A stretch of DNA of 24,251 nt from a virus. Both the position numbers and the translations under genes were made by a program. This document shows, piece by piece, positions 631-11,175 of the stretch; positions within the stretch are counted from its first letter, which is position 1; the number at the start of each line of letters is the position of its first letter. Location: positions 1 to 24,251 of IMG/VR virus record IMGVR_UViG_3300046450_000504; one strand, written 5' to 3'. Under the pieces are notes generated by a model that saw nothing but the letters and a program-made list of their open reading frames with translations, had not been told where the DNA came from and searched no databases.

Positions 631-1197
631 ATGGACAAGAAACCTTTTAGTAATATACAACACGAGGCTGGTGGCACAGAGCAAACAGCTAGGTGGTATC
701 AGAAAACAGTACGAGCATTTGCTAGTGCTATAAACTCACCTAACGAAGTATTTGGCTCAGACCTAGGAGAGTTTGCTACTCAACTAGATGTAGGCTCCAT
801 GTACATGTATACTTACAATCCAAAGACAAAACAAACATTACCTTATTGGGATACCTTCCCTTTAGTAATGATAACAGAACCACTACCCAACGGGTTTAGT
901 GGACTGAACTTACATTATTTAAGCCCACTTCTAAGAGCTACTCTTTTAGATAAGGTTATACCAACAGGTGAGATAACAAGTAAGAGTAAGCTAGGAACAC
1001 AATGGCATCAATTAAGTAATTTTAGTAAGTTCCCAGAAGCACGAAGAAGTACAAAACGTTATCTATCAAATCAAATAACAAGTAGAATGTTTAAAGTAGA
1101 TCCGAAGCATTGGAAGTCTGCAATATTTTTACCAGTACAGCGATTTCAAGGAGCTAGTGATGCTCTTGTTTATCGTGAAACAATGGAGAACAACTAA
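631..1197 (+). CDS. Conserved T4-like virion-associated protein (possible gp2-like)
   Basis: A 188-aa protein with a conserved block around residues 50-115: YTYNPKTKQTLPYWDTFPLV, then GFSGLNLHYLSPLLRATLLD. I recognise this 'LPYWD-FPLV / GLNLHYL' signature from small conserved proteins of many T4-like marine phages, but its role is uncertain. It does not resemble T4 gp53, which follows gp4 in T4. Position beside gp4 would allow a gp2 (DNA end protector) counterpart, since T4 has 2-4 in that order, but I cannot confirm it. The gene lies 13 bases after gp4 and its stop overlaps the next ATG (TAATGG). A late promoter box ends 5 bases before its ATG. Confidence 0.6.
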   Translation: MDKKPFSNIQHEAGGTEQTARWYQKTVRAFASAINSPNEVFGSDLGEFATQLDVGSMYMYTYNPKTKQTLPYWDTFPLVMITEPLPNGFSGLNLHYLSPLLRATLLDKVIPTGEITSKSKLGTQWHQLSNFSKFPEARRSTKRYLSNQITSRMFKVDPKHWKSAIFLPVQRFQGASDALVYRETMENN

Positions 1198-1796
1198 TGG
1201 CATTAAGAAACTTAGACCAGTTTAGATCAAAGATTAGAAAAACACAATTAGCTCGTACTGAAAGGTTTGAAGTTACTTTTAACTTCAACCAAGTTAGGGG
1301 CCTATCTATTCCTGGAGTTGACAATGATGCCTTAAATGAAGAAGTTATTCTGATGTGTGAAGAAGTACAGATACCAGGTATGGTAGTAGCTAACAAGGAA
1401 GTAAACTTAGGCAACTGGACACATTACAGAAACGCTAATGTCGGGTTCTTAGGTAATGAAATTAACTTTACATTCATTACAGGAACAGATTGGAATTTAA
1501 GAAGAGCATTTGAGGAATGGATAAACAAATGTGTAGATACAACATCAAAACAAATTGGGTTTCCAGACGATGTCCATATGGACATTACAGTAAAGTCATT
1601 AGACATACAAGATGGTGAGTCTGCATATTGGACATTAAAAGAATGCACACCAAAGGTTTTAAACTTGATACCGTTAAGCCAAGGCACGGTTTCAATAGTA
1701 AGAAATACATTAATTATATCAGCAGCCTATTGGGAATCTGATACTATTAAAGTTGGACTTGGAAGACAAACACCAGTAGAAACAATACTGGTATAA
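1197..1796 (+). CDS. Tail-tube-fold protein (gp19/gp54-like)
   Basis: A 199-aa protein with features of the T4 gp19 tube fold: an N-terminal strand RFEVTFNF, the segment CEEVQIPGMVVANKEVNLG, then FTFITGTDWNLRRAFEEWI, and a C-terminal strand pair GTVSIVRNTLIISAAYWES. In this family, strands of this kind build hexameric rings of the tail tube or its baseplate initiator. It is clustered with baseplate-hub assembly genes (gp26 next), so a baseplate-proximal tube initiator is as likely as the main tube subunit. Its ATG overlaps the stop of the preceding gene, indicating translational coupling. Confidence 0.7.
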   Translation: MALRNLDQFRSKIRKTQLARTERFEVTFNFNQVRGLSIPGVDNDALNEEVILMCEEVQIPGMVVANKEVNLGNWTHYRNANVGFLGNEINFTFITGTDWNLRRAFEEWINKCVDTTSKQIGFPDDVHMDITVKSLDIQDGESAYWTLKECTPKVLNLIPLSQGTVSIVRNTLIISAAYWESDTIKVGLGRQTPVETILV

Positions 1797-1815: not shown

Positions 1816-2508
1816 ATGTTACCAAAAATTGATATACCAACATTTAAAGGGAAGGTTCCCTCTACAGGAGAGTCTTACACGTTTAGACCTTTTCTTGTTA
1901 AGGAAGAAAAAATCTTAATGTTGGTTACAGAAAGTGAAGACTACAAAGAGATGGTAGAAGCATGCCAAAAGGTTGTTGAGAATTGTACCTTTGGCAAAGT
2001 TAAAGGAGATGACATTACAATGTTTGATCTACAAGATGTGTTCATTAGAATACGAGAAAAATCTGTAGGTGAGACACAAGAGTTTATTCTTACATGTGGA
2101 AACTGTAAAGGCAGATCTCCATGGGAGTTAGCACTAAGTGAATTGACTGTACAAGATTTAGACACTGCTAAAAGTACAACCGTAATACAGATTGATGAGA
2201 ATATAGCTATTAAACTTAAATGGCCTTCTAGTAGTGTAATTAAAGATGCAGGCGATACAAGCGATACTGAGATATTAGCTAAATGTATTGACGGCGTTGT
2301 TGAAGGTGAAGAAACAATTAATATGAGCGATGAGACTCCAGAAGACATTGAAGTGTTTTTAGACAGTCTCCCTTTAGATGTAATGGCAGATATGAGAGCT
2401 TTCTTTGATAGCATGCCTTATGTATCGCATACTATTAATTATACATGTAAGCATTGTGATACAAAACAAAAAGTAGAGATTACAGGTGACGATCATTTTT
2501 TCGCATAG
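1816..2508 (+). CDS. 26: Baseplate hub assembly protein gp26 (T4_baseplate family)
   Basis: A 230-aa protein starting MLPKIDIPTFKGKVPSTGE and continuing YTFRPFLVKEEKILM, the typical N terminus of the T4 gp26/gp51 baseplate family. Two CxxC pairs, C94/C97 and C211/C214, look like a zinc site. The product is expected to assist assembly of the central baseplate hub and tail. A good Shine-Dalgarno (TAGGAG) precedes the ATG. The gene ends within a slippery run: codons 228-229 are TTT TTC, followed by GCA and TAG. The -1 frame stays open through this stop into a gp51-like segment (see next entries), so this is probably also the short form of a frameshifted pair, as with lambda G and G-T. Confidence 0.85.
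   Translation: MLPKIDIPTFKGKVPSTGESYTFRPFLVKEEKILMLVTESEDYKEMVEACQKVVENCTFGKVKGDDITMFDLQDVFIRIREKSVGETQEFILTCGNCKGRSPWELALSELTVQDLDTAKSTTVIQIDENIAIKLKWPSSSVIKDAGDTSDTEILAKCIDGVVEGEETINMSDETPEDIEVFLDSLPLDVMADMRAFFDSMPYVSHTINYTCKHCDTKQKVEITGDDHFFA
2496..2502 (+). promoter_or_regulatory. Candidate -1 programmed frameshift slippery heptamer
   Basis: T TTT TTC read in the gp26 frame is a canonical X-XXY-YYZ heptamer, two codons before the gp26 stop. A slip back by one base continues as CGC ATA GCT and remains open to 2696. No Shine-Dalgarno precedes the only ATG of the downstream segment. Confidence 0.65.
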
Positions 2509-2696
2509 CTCTTTCCCAGGAACGTCTTGAAAACTTTTACAAGACGAATTTTCTGTTAATGCAAGAACATCATTATAGTTTAACGGAACTTGATAATATG
2601 ATGCCATGGGAAAGAGAGGTTTACGTTAGTATGTTGGTGTCTCACCTTCAAAAGAAGGCAGACAAAGAAAAAGAACGGCAAAAAATTAGGGGATAA
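2502..2696 (+). CDS. gp51-like tail-assembly segment, probably made as a gp26 frameshift fusion
   Basis: In the -1 frame relative to gp26 there are 64 codons from 2502 to a TAA at 2694-2696. They read ALSQERLENFYKTNF, then MQEHHYSLTELDNMMPWERE and a charged C-terminal helix. The 'HHYS..EL..M.PWERE' pattern is typical of small tail/baseplate assembly chaperones encoded just after gp26-type genes. The only internal ATG is at 2559 and has no ribosome-binding site, while 19 protein-like codons precede it, so independent initiation looks poor. A slip at 2496-2502 would give a 293-aa gp26-gp51 fusion. It ends 3 bases before the next ATG. The alternative is a separate 45-aa protein from 2559. Confidence 0.65.
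   Translation, partial: RIALSQERLENFYKTNFLLMQEHHYSLTELDNMMPWEREVYVSMLVSHLQKKADKEKERQKIRG
2523..2546 (+). repeat. Stem-loop downstream of the slippery site
   Basis: CGTCTTG (2523-2529) and CAAGACG (2540-2546) form a perfect 7-bp stem with a 10-base loop. It starts about 20 bases after the heptamer, further than the usual 5-9 base spacer, so its role in frameshifting is uncertain. Confidence 0.4.
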
Positions 2697-2699
2697 TTA

Positions 2700-5609
2700 A
2701 TGGCCAAGGAAAAAGGAACAGAAGATCTAAGAAGACTACTTAGCGAGGAGCTTGGTAAGTCAAGTCCGAGTGAAGAACGAATTGGTGATCTTAGACAAGA
2801 GTTTAAACAAAGCCAAGAAGAAATGGAGACTCACTTCGATTTCCTTAAAGAGCATGCCGGCAAAAACAAACTATTAAACATCGCCCAGGGTATTGATGCA
2901 CTTCAACAAAGAAAAATTAATAAAGCTAACCTGAACTTTGGGAAGGTAGTAAGTGAGGGGAATACAGCATCAACAGAAAGAGATAAAAAGAGACAACAAA
3001 GTAATAAACGTATAGAAACAGCGATAGCAGATATTGGCGCTAAAGTAACTGACATGCACAACAACATGGGTGGCGTGGTTAGCGGTGGCGGACAAAAAAT
3101 ATCGACAGGCAATGAAAACGATGTAGAAGTTAAAAGAACTGGCGCTAAGCCAAGCGCAGGAAAACGAAAACAGAACACGCCTAGCAAACTTGCCATGTTG
3201 GCAGTAAACATGCAGGCAGAGAAAGAAGGTAAAGTATTTAATGGTGCCTCAAATAGATGGCATGAGAATTATGAAGAGGGAGAGAAGGCCGGTAAGTTTG
3301 TTAAAGCTCCAGTTGGAGTTATCGGAGATGTTATTAGAGATAAGGGTGGGTTCAAAGACAACCAATATAGACAGGGTAGTGGCGCAAGTATGGCCATGCA
3401 AACTATTGGTGATGGTTTAGGTAAACAGGGATCCATGGAAGCTCTTAGCAAAGCTTTTGAATCAGGTTCAGAGGGTGAAGATCTAAGTAAATCTTTCAAG
3501 GCCATTGTAGAAGGATTACAAAAACAAACAAATTCTAAATCTAGAGATCCTAAAGAGGCAAAAGCGTTAACTGAACAGATAGCCAAATACCAAGTAGATG
3601 CAAAAGCTATGGGTGTAGGTGATGCTATAGATCTTGATGCGGTAATGAAACAGCAGTCAGGTGGTAGTAAATTTAAAGAACTTATGGGCATGGATCAACA
3701 GGGAGGACTTGCCTCAGCATTTTCCCCGGATCACTTGTTTGGTAACAAGGATAGTGGCGGCCTAATTAATAATGTTAGAGGCATGTTTGGTGGTAAAGCA
3801 AAAGCAGCAGTAGAGTCTGCCAAAGAACACGCAGACAGAGAGTCTCAAGGAAAAATACTACTAACAGCAAGAGATGATATTCGTCCAGCTACCGTAAAGT
3901 CTACAGACTTTATGGATGGTGAAGGCTTTGGAGAAGGTGACTATCCTATTGTTGAAGGTAAAATGCACGATCGTACTAAAGCGATACATGATAGGCAGGT
4001 TAGCGAAGATCCTAGAACAGCAAGGCGGGCCGGTAGAGGATCTATAGATTTAAATCCTCAGGGTAGTCCATTAACTATGGGGCTTAATGAGAACCTAGTT
4101 AATGAGAAAATAGCAACAGCAGAACCTGTTGCAGCAGGTACAATAGCAGCTCAACCAGCAATGGTAAGTCGCCCAGGTAAAGTAGACAAAAGAACAGGTA
4201 TTGATAAAGAACCTCTCGCTGAAAAACAACTAAATGTCTTAGAAGAGATCAGAGACATATTAAGAGACGGTGGTGGTGCAGGTGGCGGTAGTGAAAGCGG
4301 TGGTGGTATGTTTGATGGCCTTAATCCGTTTAAGAAAAAAGGATCCAAAGGGCCTAAAAAGGCTGGTAGATTCGGTAAATTTTTGAAAAGTCCCAAAGCT
4401 AAATTGGCAGGTAAAGCTCTAGGAGCTGTTGCAGCGGTTGGTATGGGTGTTTATACAGCAGTAAGCGGTGTTAACAATGCTGAAGATATGGCAGACGCAG
4501 GTGAGTTAAATGCAGAAGAAGAACAAAAAGCTAAATCAGAGGCAATAGGAGAAGGTACAGGTGGAGCAACCGGAGCATTAGCCGGAGCAGCTGCCGGAGC
4601 AGCCATTGGTTCTGTTGTTCCTTTTGTAGGAACAGCTATAGGCGGTATAATTGGCGGAGCTCTTGGATGGTGGGGAGGTAGTAAAGCAGGTAAGGCAGCT
4701 GGCGGAGCGATAGCAGATGCTATTCCTGTATCAGCTGAAGATCTCGCAGAGTCTAATGCCCAAACAGAAAATGTATTAAGCCAAATAGAAGAAAGAGATT
4801 CAGGGTTAGCCGGACAAATAAGACAAGAGGCAGCGGGTATAGAATCTACATTGTTGGCAGAAGCTGGTGATTCAGTATCCGACAAAGACAAAGCATCTAT
4901 TAAAAACGCAGCCATGGTACAGGCATTACTAAATAATCCTGATGCTACAGCAGGCATTGATAGAAACGTATCTGCCATTGATACAACTCTTGAGTCAATA
5001 GCTGGTGGAGATACAGCAACTGAAACAGGTACTGCAACACCGGTATGGCAGGGACACTTTGATGCAGGATCCCCATTTTTCCCTGATAGTGGCCTCAATA
5101 ACAAACAGTATGCACCAGCCTTTGAAACGGCTCAGGCTTATTATGACAGAACTGGCGAAGATGAACTACCGGAAGGCTGGACTCGGGATAAAGGTGGGAT
5201 GCCTGTATCTCCACCTAAAGAAATTACTGGAACAGCTAATGCAGCCGGTGCTGAAATTGCGGTTAAAGGGTCTTATAAGATGGGCAAGATGACGATGGAA
5301 GAAATTCAAGCAGGGATTCAAGATGGAAGTATTGATCCTGATAATGGCAAAGCAGCAATAGATCAACTAGGAAAACTGTCCAATATTGAAAATCTAGGTG
5401 CGCCAACAGCAGCTGCTATTGATAATACAACTAATGCTTTTCAAGATGCTATGATGGCAAATGCAGATATGCCACCAGTAATAGTAGCCCCTACTACTAA
5501 TGTAGCAAGTGGTGGTGATAGTGGGCCAACAGTAGCAGTGGCAGCTGCTTCGGGTGCACGTATAAACCGTAGCTCGTTATCTAGATGGCAAGATTCAGCG
5601 TACGCTTAA
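2700..5609 (+). CDS. Large glycine/alanine-rich tail protein, tape-measure candidate
   Basis: A 969-aa protein, the largest here, immediately downstream of the gp26/gp51 unit. The N-terminal 100 residues are charged and probably coiled coil. The middle is low-complexity, with GGG-rich linkers near residues 520-545. Near residues 565-590 and 620-665 there are hydrophobic Gly/Ala-zipper segments, including GATGALAGAAAGAAIGS and TAIGGIIGGALGWWGG, that could insert in a membrane. In tailed phages, the long gene directly after the chaperone pair is typically the tape measure, which sets tail length and enters the host membrane at infection; in T4 the corresponding protein is gp29. That is positional inference; I see no direct similarity to gp29. 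Its TAA shares the bases TTAA with the stop of the opposing lysozyme gene. Confidence 0.55.
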   Translation: MAKEKGTEDLRRLLSEELGKSSPSEERIGDLRQEFKQSQEEMETHFDFLKEHAGKNKLLNIAQGIDALQQRKINKANLNFGKVVSEGNTASTERDKKRQQSNKRIETAIADIGAKVTDMHNNMGGVVSGGGQKISTGNENDVEVKRTGAKPSAGKRKQNTPSKLAMLAVNMQAEKEGKVFNGASNRWHENYEEGEKAGKFVKAPVGVIGDVIRDKGGFKDNQYRQGSGASMAMQTIGDGLGKQGSMEALSKAFESGSEGEDLSKSFKAIVEGLQKQTNSKSRDPKEAKALTEQIAKYQVDAKAMGVGDAIDLDAVMKQQSGGSKFKELMGMDQQGGLASAFSPDHLFGNKDSGGLINNVRGMFGGKAKAAVESAKEHADRESQGKILLTARDDIRPATVKSTDFMDGEGFGEGDYPIVEGKMHDRTKAIHDRQVSEDPRTARRAGRGSIDLNPQGSPLTMGLNENLVNEKIATAEPVAAGTIAAQPAMVSRPGKVDKRTGIDKEPLAEKQLNVLEEIRDILRDGGGAGGGSESGGGMFDGLNPFKKKGSKGPKKAGRFGKFLKSPKAKLAGKALGAVAAVGMGVYTAVSGVNNAEDMADAGELNAEEEQKAKSEAIGEGTGGATGALAGAAAGAAIGSVVPFVGTAIGGIIGGALGWWGGSKAGKAAGGAIADAIPVSAEDLAESNAQTENVLSQIEERDSGLAGQIRQEAAGIESTLLAEAGDSVSDKDKASIKNAAMVQALLNNPDATAGIDRNVSAIDTTLESIAGGDTATETGTATPVWQGHFDAGSPFFPDSGLNNKQYAPAFETAQAYYDRTGEDELPEGWTRDKGGMPVSPPKEITGTANAAGAEIAVKGSYKMGKMTMEEIQAGIQDGSIDPDNGKAAIDQLGKLSNIENLGAPTAAAIDNTTNAFQDAMMANADMPPVIVAPTTNVASGGDSGPTVAVAAASGARINRSSLSRWQDSAYA

Positions 5610-10841: not shown

Positions 10842-10902
10842 ATGGTTCCTCCTTTAATAGTGGGCCCTATTGTAACAGGGTGGTGCCCATACCCCGACTA
10901 GC

Positions 10903-10956
10903 TTATGCCGCTAGTGCGTAACCATTTGCTTCTGCATTTAGTTTGTTTGCTTCTGC
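10903..10956 (-). other. tmRNA tag reading frame
   Basis: From GCA at 10956 the frame reads AEANKLNAEANGYALAA then TAA at 10905-10903. The terminal ALAA is the usual ssrA degron recognised by ClpXP. The resume codon is either GCA at 10956 or the GCA two codons later, giving a tag of 17 or 15 residues. Confidence 0.8.
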
Positions 10957-10959
10957 GTT
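10918..10959 (-). repeat. Tandem 21-base duplication inside the tmRNA tag
   Basis: Two consecutive 21-base units each begin AA(C/T)GCAGAAGCAAA(C/T), translated NAEAN-KL and NAEAN-GY. The first 15 bases differ only at two pyrimidines. Confidence 0.7.
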
Positions 10960-11120
10960 GGAAAATACCAACAAGTCTTCCGCCTTGACTTATTCTCCAC
11001 TTACCTTATTATTCCCTGTCGATCCTAATTCTCCCCCTCATTTTTTATTGGTGGAGGAGCCGGGAATTGCACCCGGGTCCAGAAAACTTTATTCGTAAGT
11101 ATCAACGAACAATAGTATTT

Positions 11121-11149
11121 ATTATACTTTAAAAGCATGTATTTGTAAA
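11121..11149 (-). promoter_or_regulatory. Sigma70-type promoter of the tmRNA
   Basis: On the minus strand TTTACA (11149-11144), a 17-base spacer and a perfect TATAAT (11126-11121). The predicted start near 11114 lies just upstream of the acceptor half of the tmRNA, after the terminator at 11176-11201. Confidence 0.75.
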
Positions 11150-11175
11150 GAGTGAAGAACACCATAAAAGCTAGA

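Follow-up and report, generated by a model that had tools for sequence, protein, structure and literature searches.

A conserved slippery heptamer at the end of gp26 points to a two-product tail assembly chaperone gene in T4-like phages

Introduction

The locus described here raises the question of how a gp51-like sequence is translated when it follows a gp26-like gene in the -1 frame, and whether the two are separate genes or parts of one. It lies in the window, the 24,251-nucleotide stretch of viral DNA analysed in this work (positions 1 to 24,251 of the IMG/VR record IMGVR_UViG_3300046450_000504). In T4, gp26 and gp51 are listed as hub assembly chaperones, with gp51 absent from the particle (PMC3004832). 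The cyanophage and vibriophage gp51 proteins have been described as missing the first ~200 residues, those of the cyanophages being ~20% of the length of the T4 protein, and Aeh1 as having no gp51 (Sullivan et al. 2010, PMC3037559).

Results

The gp26-gp51 junction

The genes around the junction and the candidate slip site are as follows.

1197..1796, + strand: tail tube protein gene, 5′ of gp26 (PHROG 45 tail tube, E 1e-22)
1816..2508, + strand: gp26-like short tail assembly chaperone (TAC-N), 230 aa (PF12322 T4_baseplate, E 3e-53; PHROG 150 baseplate hub)
2490..2696, + strand: -1 frame ORF; from 2499 onwards it encodes the 65 gp51-like residues that extend the long form at its C-terminus
2496..2502, + strand: slippery heptamer T TTT TTC, candidate -1 programmed ribosomal frameshift site, conserved in relatives
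2700..5609, + strand: large tail gene, tape-measure-like (PHROG 794 tail length tape measure, E 1e-10, with the match confined to a central segment)

The gene order is thus tail tube, gp26, gp51 and a tape-measure-like gene, with PHROG 45 upstream and, weakly, PHROG 794 downstream. The gp26 protein matches the PF12322 profile with 181 bits at a gathering cut-off of 24.5, and its ORF ends in CAT TTT TTC GCA TAG, with a single sense codon between the heptamer and the stop; the placement of T TTT TTC just before the gp26 stop is as the initial annotation described it. Read in the -1 frame from 2499, the sequence encodes FRIALSQERLENFYKTNFLLMQEHHYSLTELDNMMPWEREVYVSMLVSHLQKKADKEKERQKIRG, a tail that matches PHROG 634, the baseplate hub assembly catalyst (gp51), with an E-value of 1e-25. 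The initial annotation had also described the -1 frame as open on both sides of the heptamer, which holds downstream, as far as 2696, but upstream for three codons only, as a TGA 9 nt 5′ of the YYY codon closes the frame; no start fits there, and the case for a frameshift becomes the stronger for it. The ATG at 2559, previously taken for the only one in this frame, is the first of four (2559, 2598, 2601, 2631), and it does lack a ribosome-binding site, as had been claimed, its anti-SD duplex amounting to -0.4 kcal/mol, with gp26 at -7.3 and the gene that follows at -6.4. The motif TTTTTTY is not rare in the AT-rich window (15 seen versus 27 expected), therefore the heptamer means little by itself and the evidence lies in its conservation.

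In HTVC008M, an extra ORF separates the gp51 tail from the tape measure gene, and one of ~90-110 aa is found there in Pelagibacter and Methylophilales phages (L277 3208-3540; L285 3222-3551; L160 4192-4464); it is absent in the window.

Conservation of the slip site

Viral contigs were searched for loci mainly by gp26, with one search by the tail, hence the heptamer was no selection criterion. The conservation set comprised 268 relatives with a complete gp26 end, forming 74 clusters at 70% identity and 35 at 50%. T TTT TT[C/T] was kept in 261 of the 261 relatives without an in-frame fusion, so that relatives lacking it, which the initial annotation had named as counter-evidence, numbered zero among the non-fused members of the set. 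It lies zero or one codon ahead of the gp26 stop in 260 of the 268, while in Mosig T TTT TTC is found a few codons earlier than in other relatives. The seven without the heptamer (T4, avDM3, CHI14, PSD2001, Moon, Olmo and Vibrio phage TDDLMA) carry the long form as a single reading frame. Counted by clusters, the heptamer is present in 74/74 and 35/35 at the two identity levels, as TTTTTTC in 67 and TTTTTTT in 7 of the former, and the gp51 frame relative to gp26 is always -1 in the non-fused relatives. The heptamer is shared by KVP40, Acidovorax ACP17, Ochrobactrum OC, S-CRM01, Aeh1, Cronobacter S13, ZPAH1, VmeM-32, Stenotrophomonas Marzo, Pseudomonas Astolliot, HTVC008M and Melnitz, and by four loci from bacterial assemblies.

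The codon ahead of the heptamer's TTT varies (CAT 25, AAT 18, TCT 11, GAT 10, AGT 8, GCT 1, ACT 1), and it always ends in T. Judged by codon use elsewhere in the same genes and with the clusters taken as independent, a T at this position in all 74 would have a chance of ~10^-23, which, the clusters being related, is a guide and not an exact value.

With the gp26 of KVP40 as the query, only two viral contigs were found. In a megablast of the whole window, the named phages among the ten best matches listed gave only tRNA-sized matches, and no close named relative appeared there. In Vibrio phage Kuja (Ackermannviridae; L283 2900-3100), a gp26 homologue is followed by a -1 frame tail with CTTTTTC in place of T TTT TTC, by its sequence a variant slip site in another family.

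Putative stimulatory elements

Two further elements flank the heptamer in the window.

2484..2489, + strand: AGGTGA, putative stimulatory Shine-Dalgarno-like element, 6 nt upstream of the heptamer and complementary to the 3′ end of the 16S rRNA
2517..2555, + strand: hairpin, possible stimulator, with a 7-bp core (2523-2529/2540-2546)

The AGGTGA duplex has a predicted energy of -8.2 kcal/mol and ranks 16 among 684 gp26 positions. In the relatives, pairing with the 16S rRNA 3′ end likewise peaks 6-8 nt 5′ of the heptamer, where the signal is stronger than in synonymous resampling of the same amino acids (z -7.2, 0/200), and the GAG:GAA ratio at the SD-like position is 16:8 versus 494:1267 overall.

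The 7-bp stem noted in the initial annotation is indeed present, 2523-2529 pairing with 2540-2546, and in the most stable fold the stem is longer and reaches -11.9 kcal/mol, with a z of -2.6 versus dinucleotide shuffles. Across 45 relatives, the window-type core is formed in 86% of the cells (pairs by sequences), with compensatory changes at 3 of the 7 pairs and 27 double changes versus 12 in shuffles. More generally, the RNA directly downstream of the site is better folded than its synonymous resamplings, by a mean z of -1.6 to -1.9 in windows that begin 4-16 nt past the codon boundary, and the excess fades to z -0.1 by 90 nt. No consensus structure emerged when 74 aligned junctions were folded with RNAalifold; the hairpin register differs between lineages, and the hairpins were therefore examined per lineage. 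They are lineage-specific, with some lineages folding weakly and covariation weak in the S-PM2 lineage (12 sequences). The presence of the downstream stem noted earlier thus stands, but it differs among relatives and starts 14-20 nt past the heptamer in the window lineage, above the usual spacing; at this distance a role for the stem is less sure than one for the SD-like element.

Alternative routes to the gp51-like tail

RNA polymerase slippage on the T run could add a base, so that a fraction of the mRNAs would encode the fusion. The site is a T run and one extra T yields the same product, yet the run has only 6-7 T, which is short for transcriptional slippage, and the polymerase would need neither the phase of the run nor a stimulatory SD-like element. 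This route is accordingly considered very unlikely.

A separate small gp51 gene starting at the internal ATG (2559 in the window) is the choice of the annotators of HTVC008M, Mosig and Melnitz, and most clusters do have an in-frame ATG ~20 codons past the heptamer. The sequence ahead of that ATG, however, behaves as coding. In 81 aligned, ungapped junctions, the -1 frame is free of stops over the stretch from the gp26 stop to the first ATG (0/81; a stop between the heptamer and the ATG had been named beforehand as counter-evidence), whereas in each other frame ~93% of the sequences contain stops; the -1 frame has a pN/pS of 0.18, the other two 1.43 and 1.73. The stretch is under purifying selection in the gp51 frame only, with 17-20 codons ahead of the ATG conserved as protein, which agrees with the chaperone-like coding that the initial annotation had read there. 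The homology to T4 gp51 also runs continuously across the junction, and an SD-like 4-mer, the good ribosome-binding site that a separate gene would call for, accompanies the first downstream ATG in only 5/74 clusters. Upstream, no ATG in the gp51 frame was found in any of the 74 clusters, and with GTG and TTG included a start is present in only 3/74 and absent in 71/74; the gp51 frame is closed within 15 nt upstream in 30/74. As read from these sequences, the tail is translated, and not from a start of its own, and a separate gene is regarded as highly improbable.

Termination-reinitiation, in which ribosomes that have ended gp26 would begin anew in the -1 frame close to its stop, draws on an ATG located 2-4 codons past the heptamer in 12/74 clusters, such as the TAATG of KVP40. 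Most relatives, however, have no start codon there, and the invariant T ahead of TTT TTC would be left unexplained, which makes this route scarcely credible.

That the heptamer is conserved merely for coding Phe in both frames, FF ending gp26 and F standing in the -1 frame, can practically be dismissed as it is already contradicted by codon statistics, FF being codable in four ways with TTTTTC/TTTTTT in only 27/59 other FF pairs of these genes, and the third base of the variable preceding codon being T in 74/74.

Discussion

Proposed mechanism

The sequence evidence makes it very probable that gp26 and the following -1 ORF constitute one tail assembly chaperone gene with two products, made through -1 slippage at T TTT TTC. 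The majority of ribosomes would stop after gp26 and yield the short chaperone. A minority, with TTT TTC in the P and A sites, would slip back by one base, re-pair on TTT TTT and read 64 more codons to produce a gp26-gp51 long chaperone, and the SD-like element ~6 nt upstream, together with the downstream hairpin in many lineages, probably raises the slip rate. On the model of lambda G/GT, the short form would serve as a coat for the tape measure, with a few long forms bringing in the tail tube subunit.

Comparison with other tail assembly chaperones

The tail assembly chaperones G and G-T of lambda are reportedly the subject of Levin 1993 and of Xu, Hendrix and Duda 2004. Common to lambda and the window are a short protein and a -1 frameshifted long form, the latter predicted in the window, encoded between the tail tube and tape measure genes. 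The two differ in the slip site, which is G GGA AAG in lambda and T TTT TTC here; in the short protein, gp26 greatly exceeding gpG in size and carrying an extra C-terminal part; and in the tail, which in the window phage is contractile and of the T4 type. A sequence-profile search of the PDB with gp26 found nothing. AlphaFold2 with 46 relatives gave a gp26 model of pLDDT 93.7, and when its N-domain was compared with 550 realigned PDB chains, the HK97 tail assembly chaperone 2ob9 ranked first (83 residues, Z 7.1), followed at Z 6.5 by 3klu, the YqbN protein of B. subtilis and presumably an XkdN-type phage chaperone (83-84 residues for the top two), the next reaching 4.8. Foldseek alone was not significant, hence the fold match is supporting evidence and not proof. 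Gene order and predicted fold both fit the likeness to the lambda G/G-T frameshift drawn in the initial annotation, and with the sequence evidence taken together the reading of the arrangement as the lambda device is strongly supported.

The device is known from other phages and has probably been noticed already in T4-like ones. Vladimirov, Gautam and Davidson 2022, as cited in PMC10885494, describe T4-like TAC genes as a short gene plus a longer fusion gene, and a 2025 paper (PMC12846349) credits the same work with poly-T slip signals in T4-like TAC-N genes. That paper also describes for the Vandenendeviridae/Andersonviridae a poly-T slip at the TAC-N end and a long -1 extension often annotated separately, both of which are shared by the window, though those are other phage families with another slip motif, GTTTTT (PMC12846349). 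What is added here is evidence on the breadth of the device, its stimulators, the missed annotations and the relation to T4.

Relation to T4 gp26 and gp51

PF12322, the family of the window gp26, includes T4 gp26 (208 aa) as well as T4 gp51 (249 aa) over its residues 1-201, and a further match of T4 gp51 is to PHROG 634, the tail family. When the proteins are aligned, T4 gp26 stops no more than three residues from the slip position, whereas T4 gp51 runs on in frame into the same tail. T4 gp26 thus corresponds to the short form and T4 gp51 to the long form, but T4 encodes them as two separate genes with no frameshift. The window tail lies in the -1 frame, unlike the single in-frame gp51 of T4, and by alignment only the joined product is equivalent to the T4 protein.

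A broader scenario is somewhat favoured, in which the -1 frameshift is the ancestral device for the T4-like chaperone pair, kept in all marine (Kyanoviridae) and many Straboviridae lineages with a three-part signal made up of the SD-like element, T TTT TTY and a lineage-specific hairpin, and in which a duplication in the T4 lineage put two genes in its place, gp26 and a gp51 fused in frame; the gp51 genes of cyanophages, vibriophages and Aeh1 described as "truncated" or "missing" would then all be artefacts of overlooking it. The frameshift would supply the missing ~200 residues and thereby explain the puzzle of the "truncated" cyanophage gp51, as well as the reported lack of gp51 in Aeh1. G-T frameshifting has been stated to be conserved "except T4" (PMC5009743), a statement that would be narrowed in that, among T4-like phages, only the T4 side is without the frameshift. 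The locus would also allow one to test whether duplication can convert a gene with a frameshift into a pair of genes.

In Vibrio phage VB_VaC_TDDLMA (L171 1964-2653), a single in-frame long chaperone stands directly before the next large gene and no short paralogue was identified, thus a short form, if any, would be made in another way. The record of Citrobacter phage Moon (L172 2653-4291) gives gp27/gp28 joined as a "GT-like fusion protein", possibly a second frameshift in the T4 hub operon.

Missed annotations

Phage records matching the tail at E<=0.01 number 573. A joined gp26-gp51 gene was annotated in none of the non-fused records opened, which give separate genes or nothing, and the reading of an essential assembly gene would be corrected in hundreds of marine phage genomes. 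In Aeromonas phage Aeh1 (L279 3250-3429), a gp51-like tail follows gp26 in the -1 frame and is unannotated, as are those of three further loci (L280, L282 and L284), all four sitting in a gap of ~160-210 nt in the public annotation.

A tmRNA gene in the window

The window also carries, at 10859-11160 on the minus strand, a permuted tmRNA gene of the alphaproteobacterial type (Rfam RF04321, 114.5 bits; RF01849, 73.7 bits) with the tag AEANGYALAA. Its presence in a T4-like phage contig suggests that the host is an alphaproteobacterium (SAR11-like), and the phage may use the gene to control ribosome rescue.
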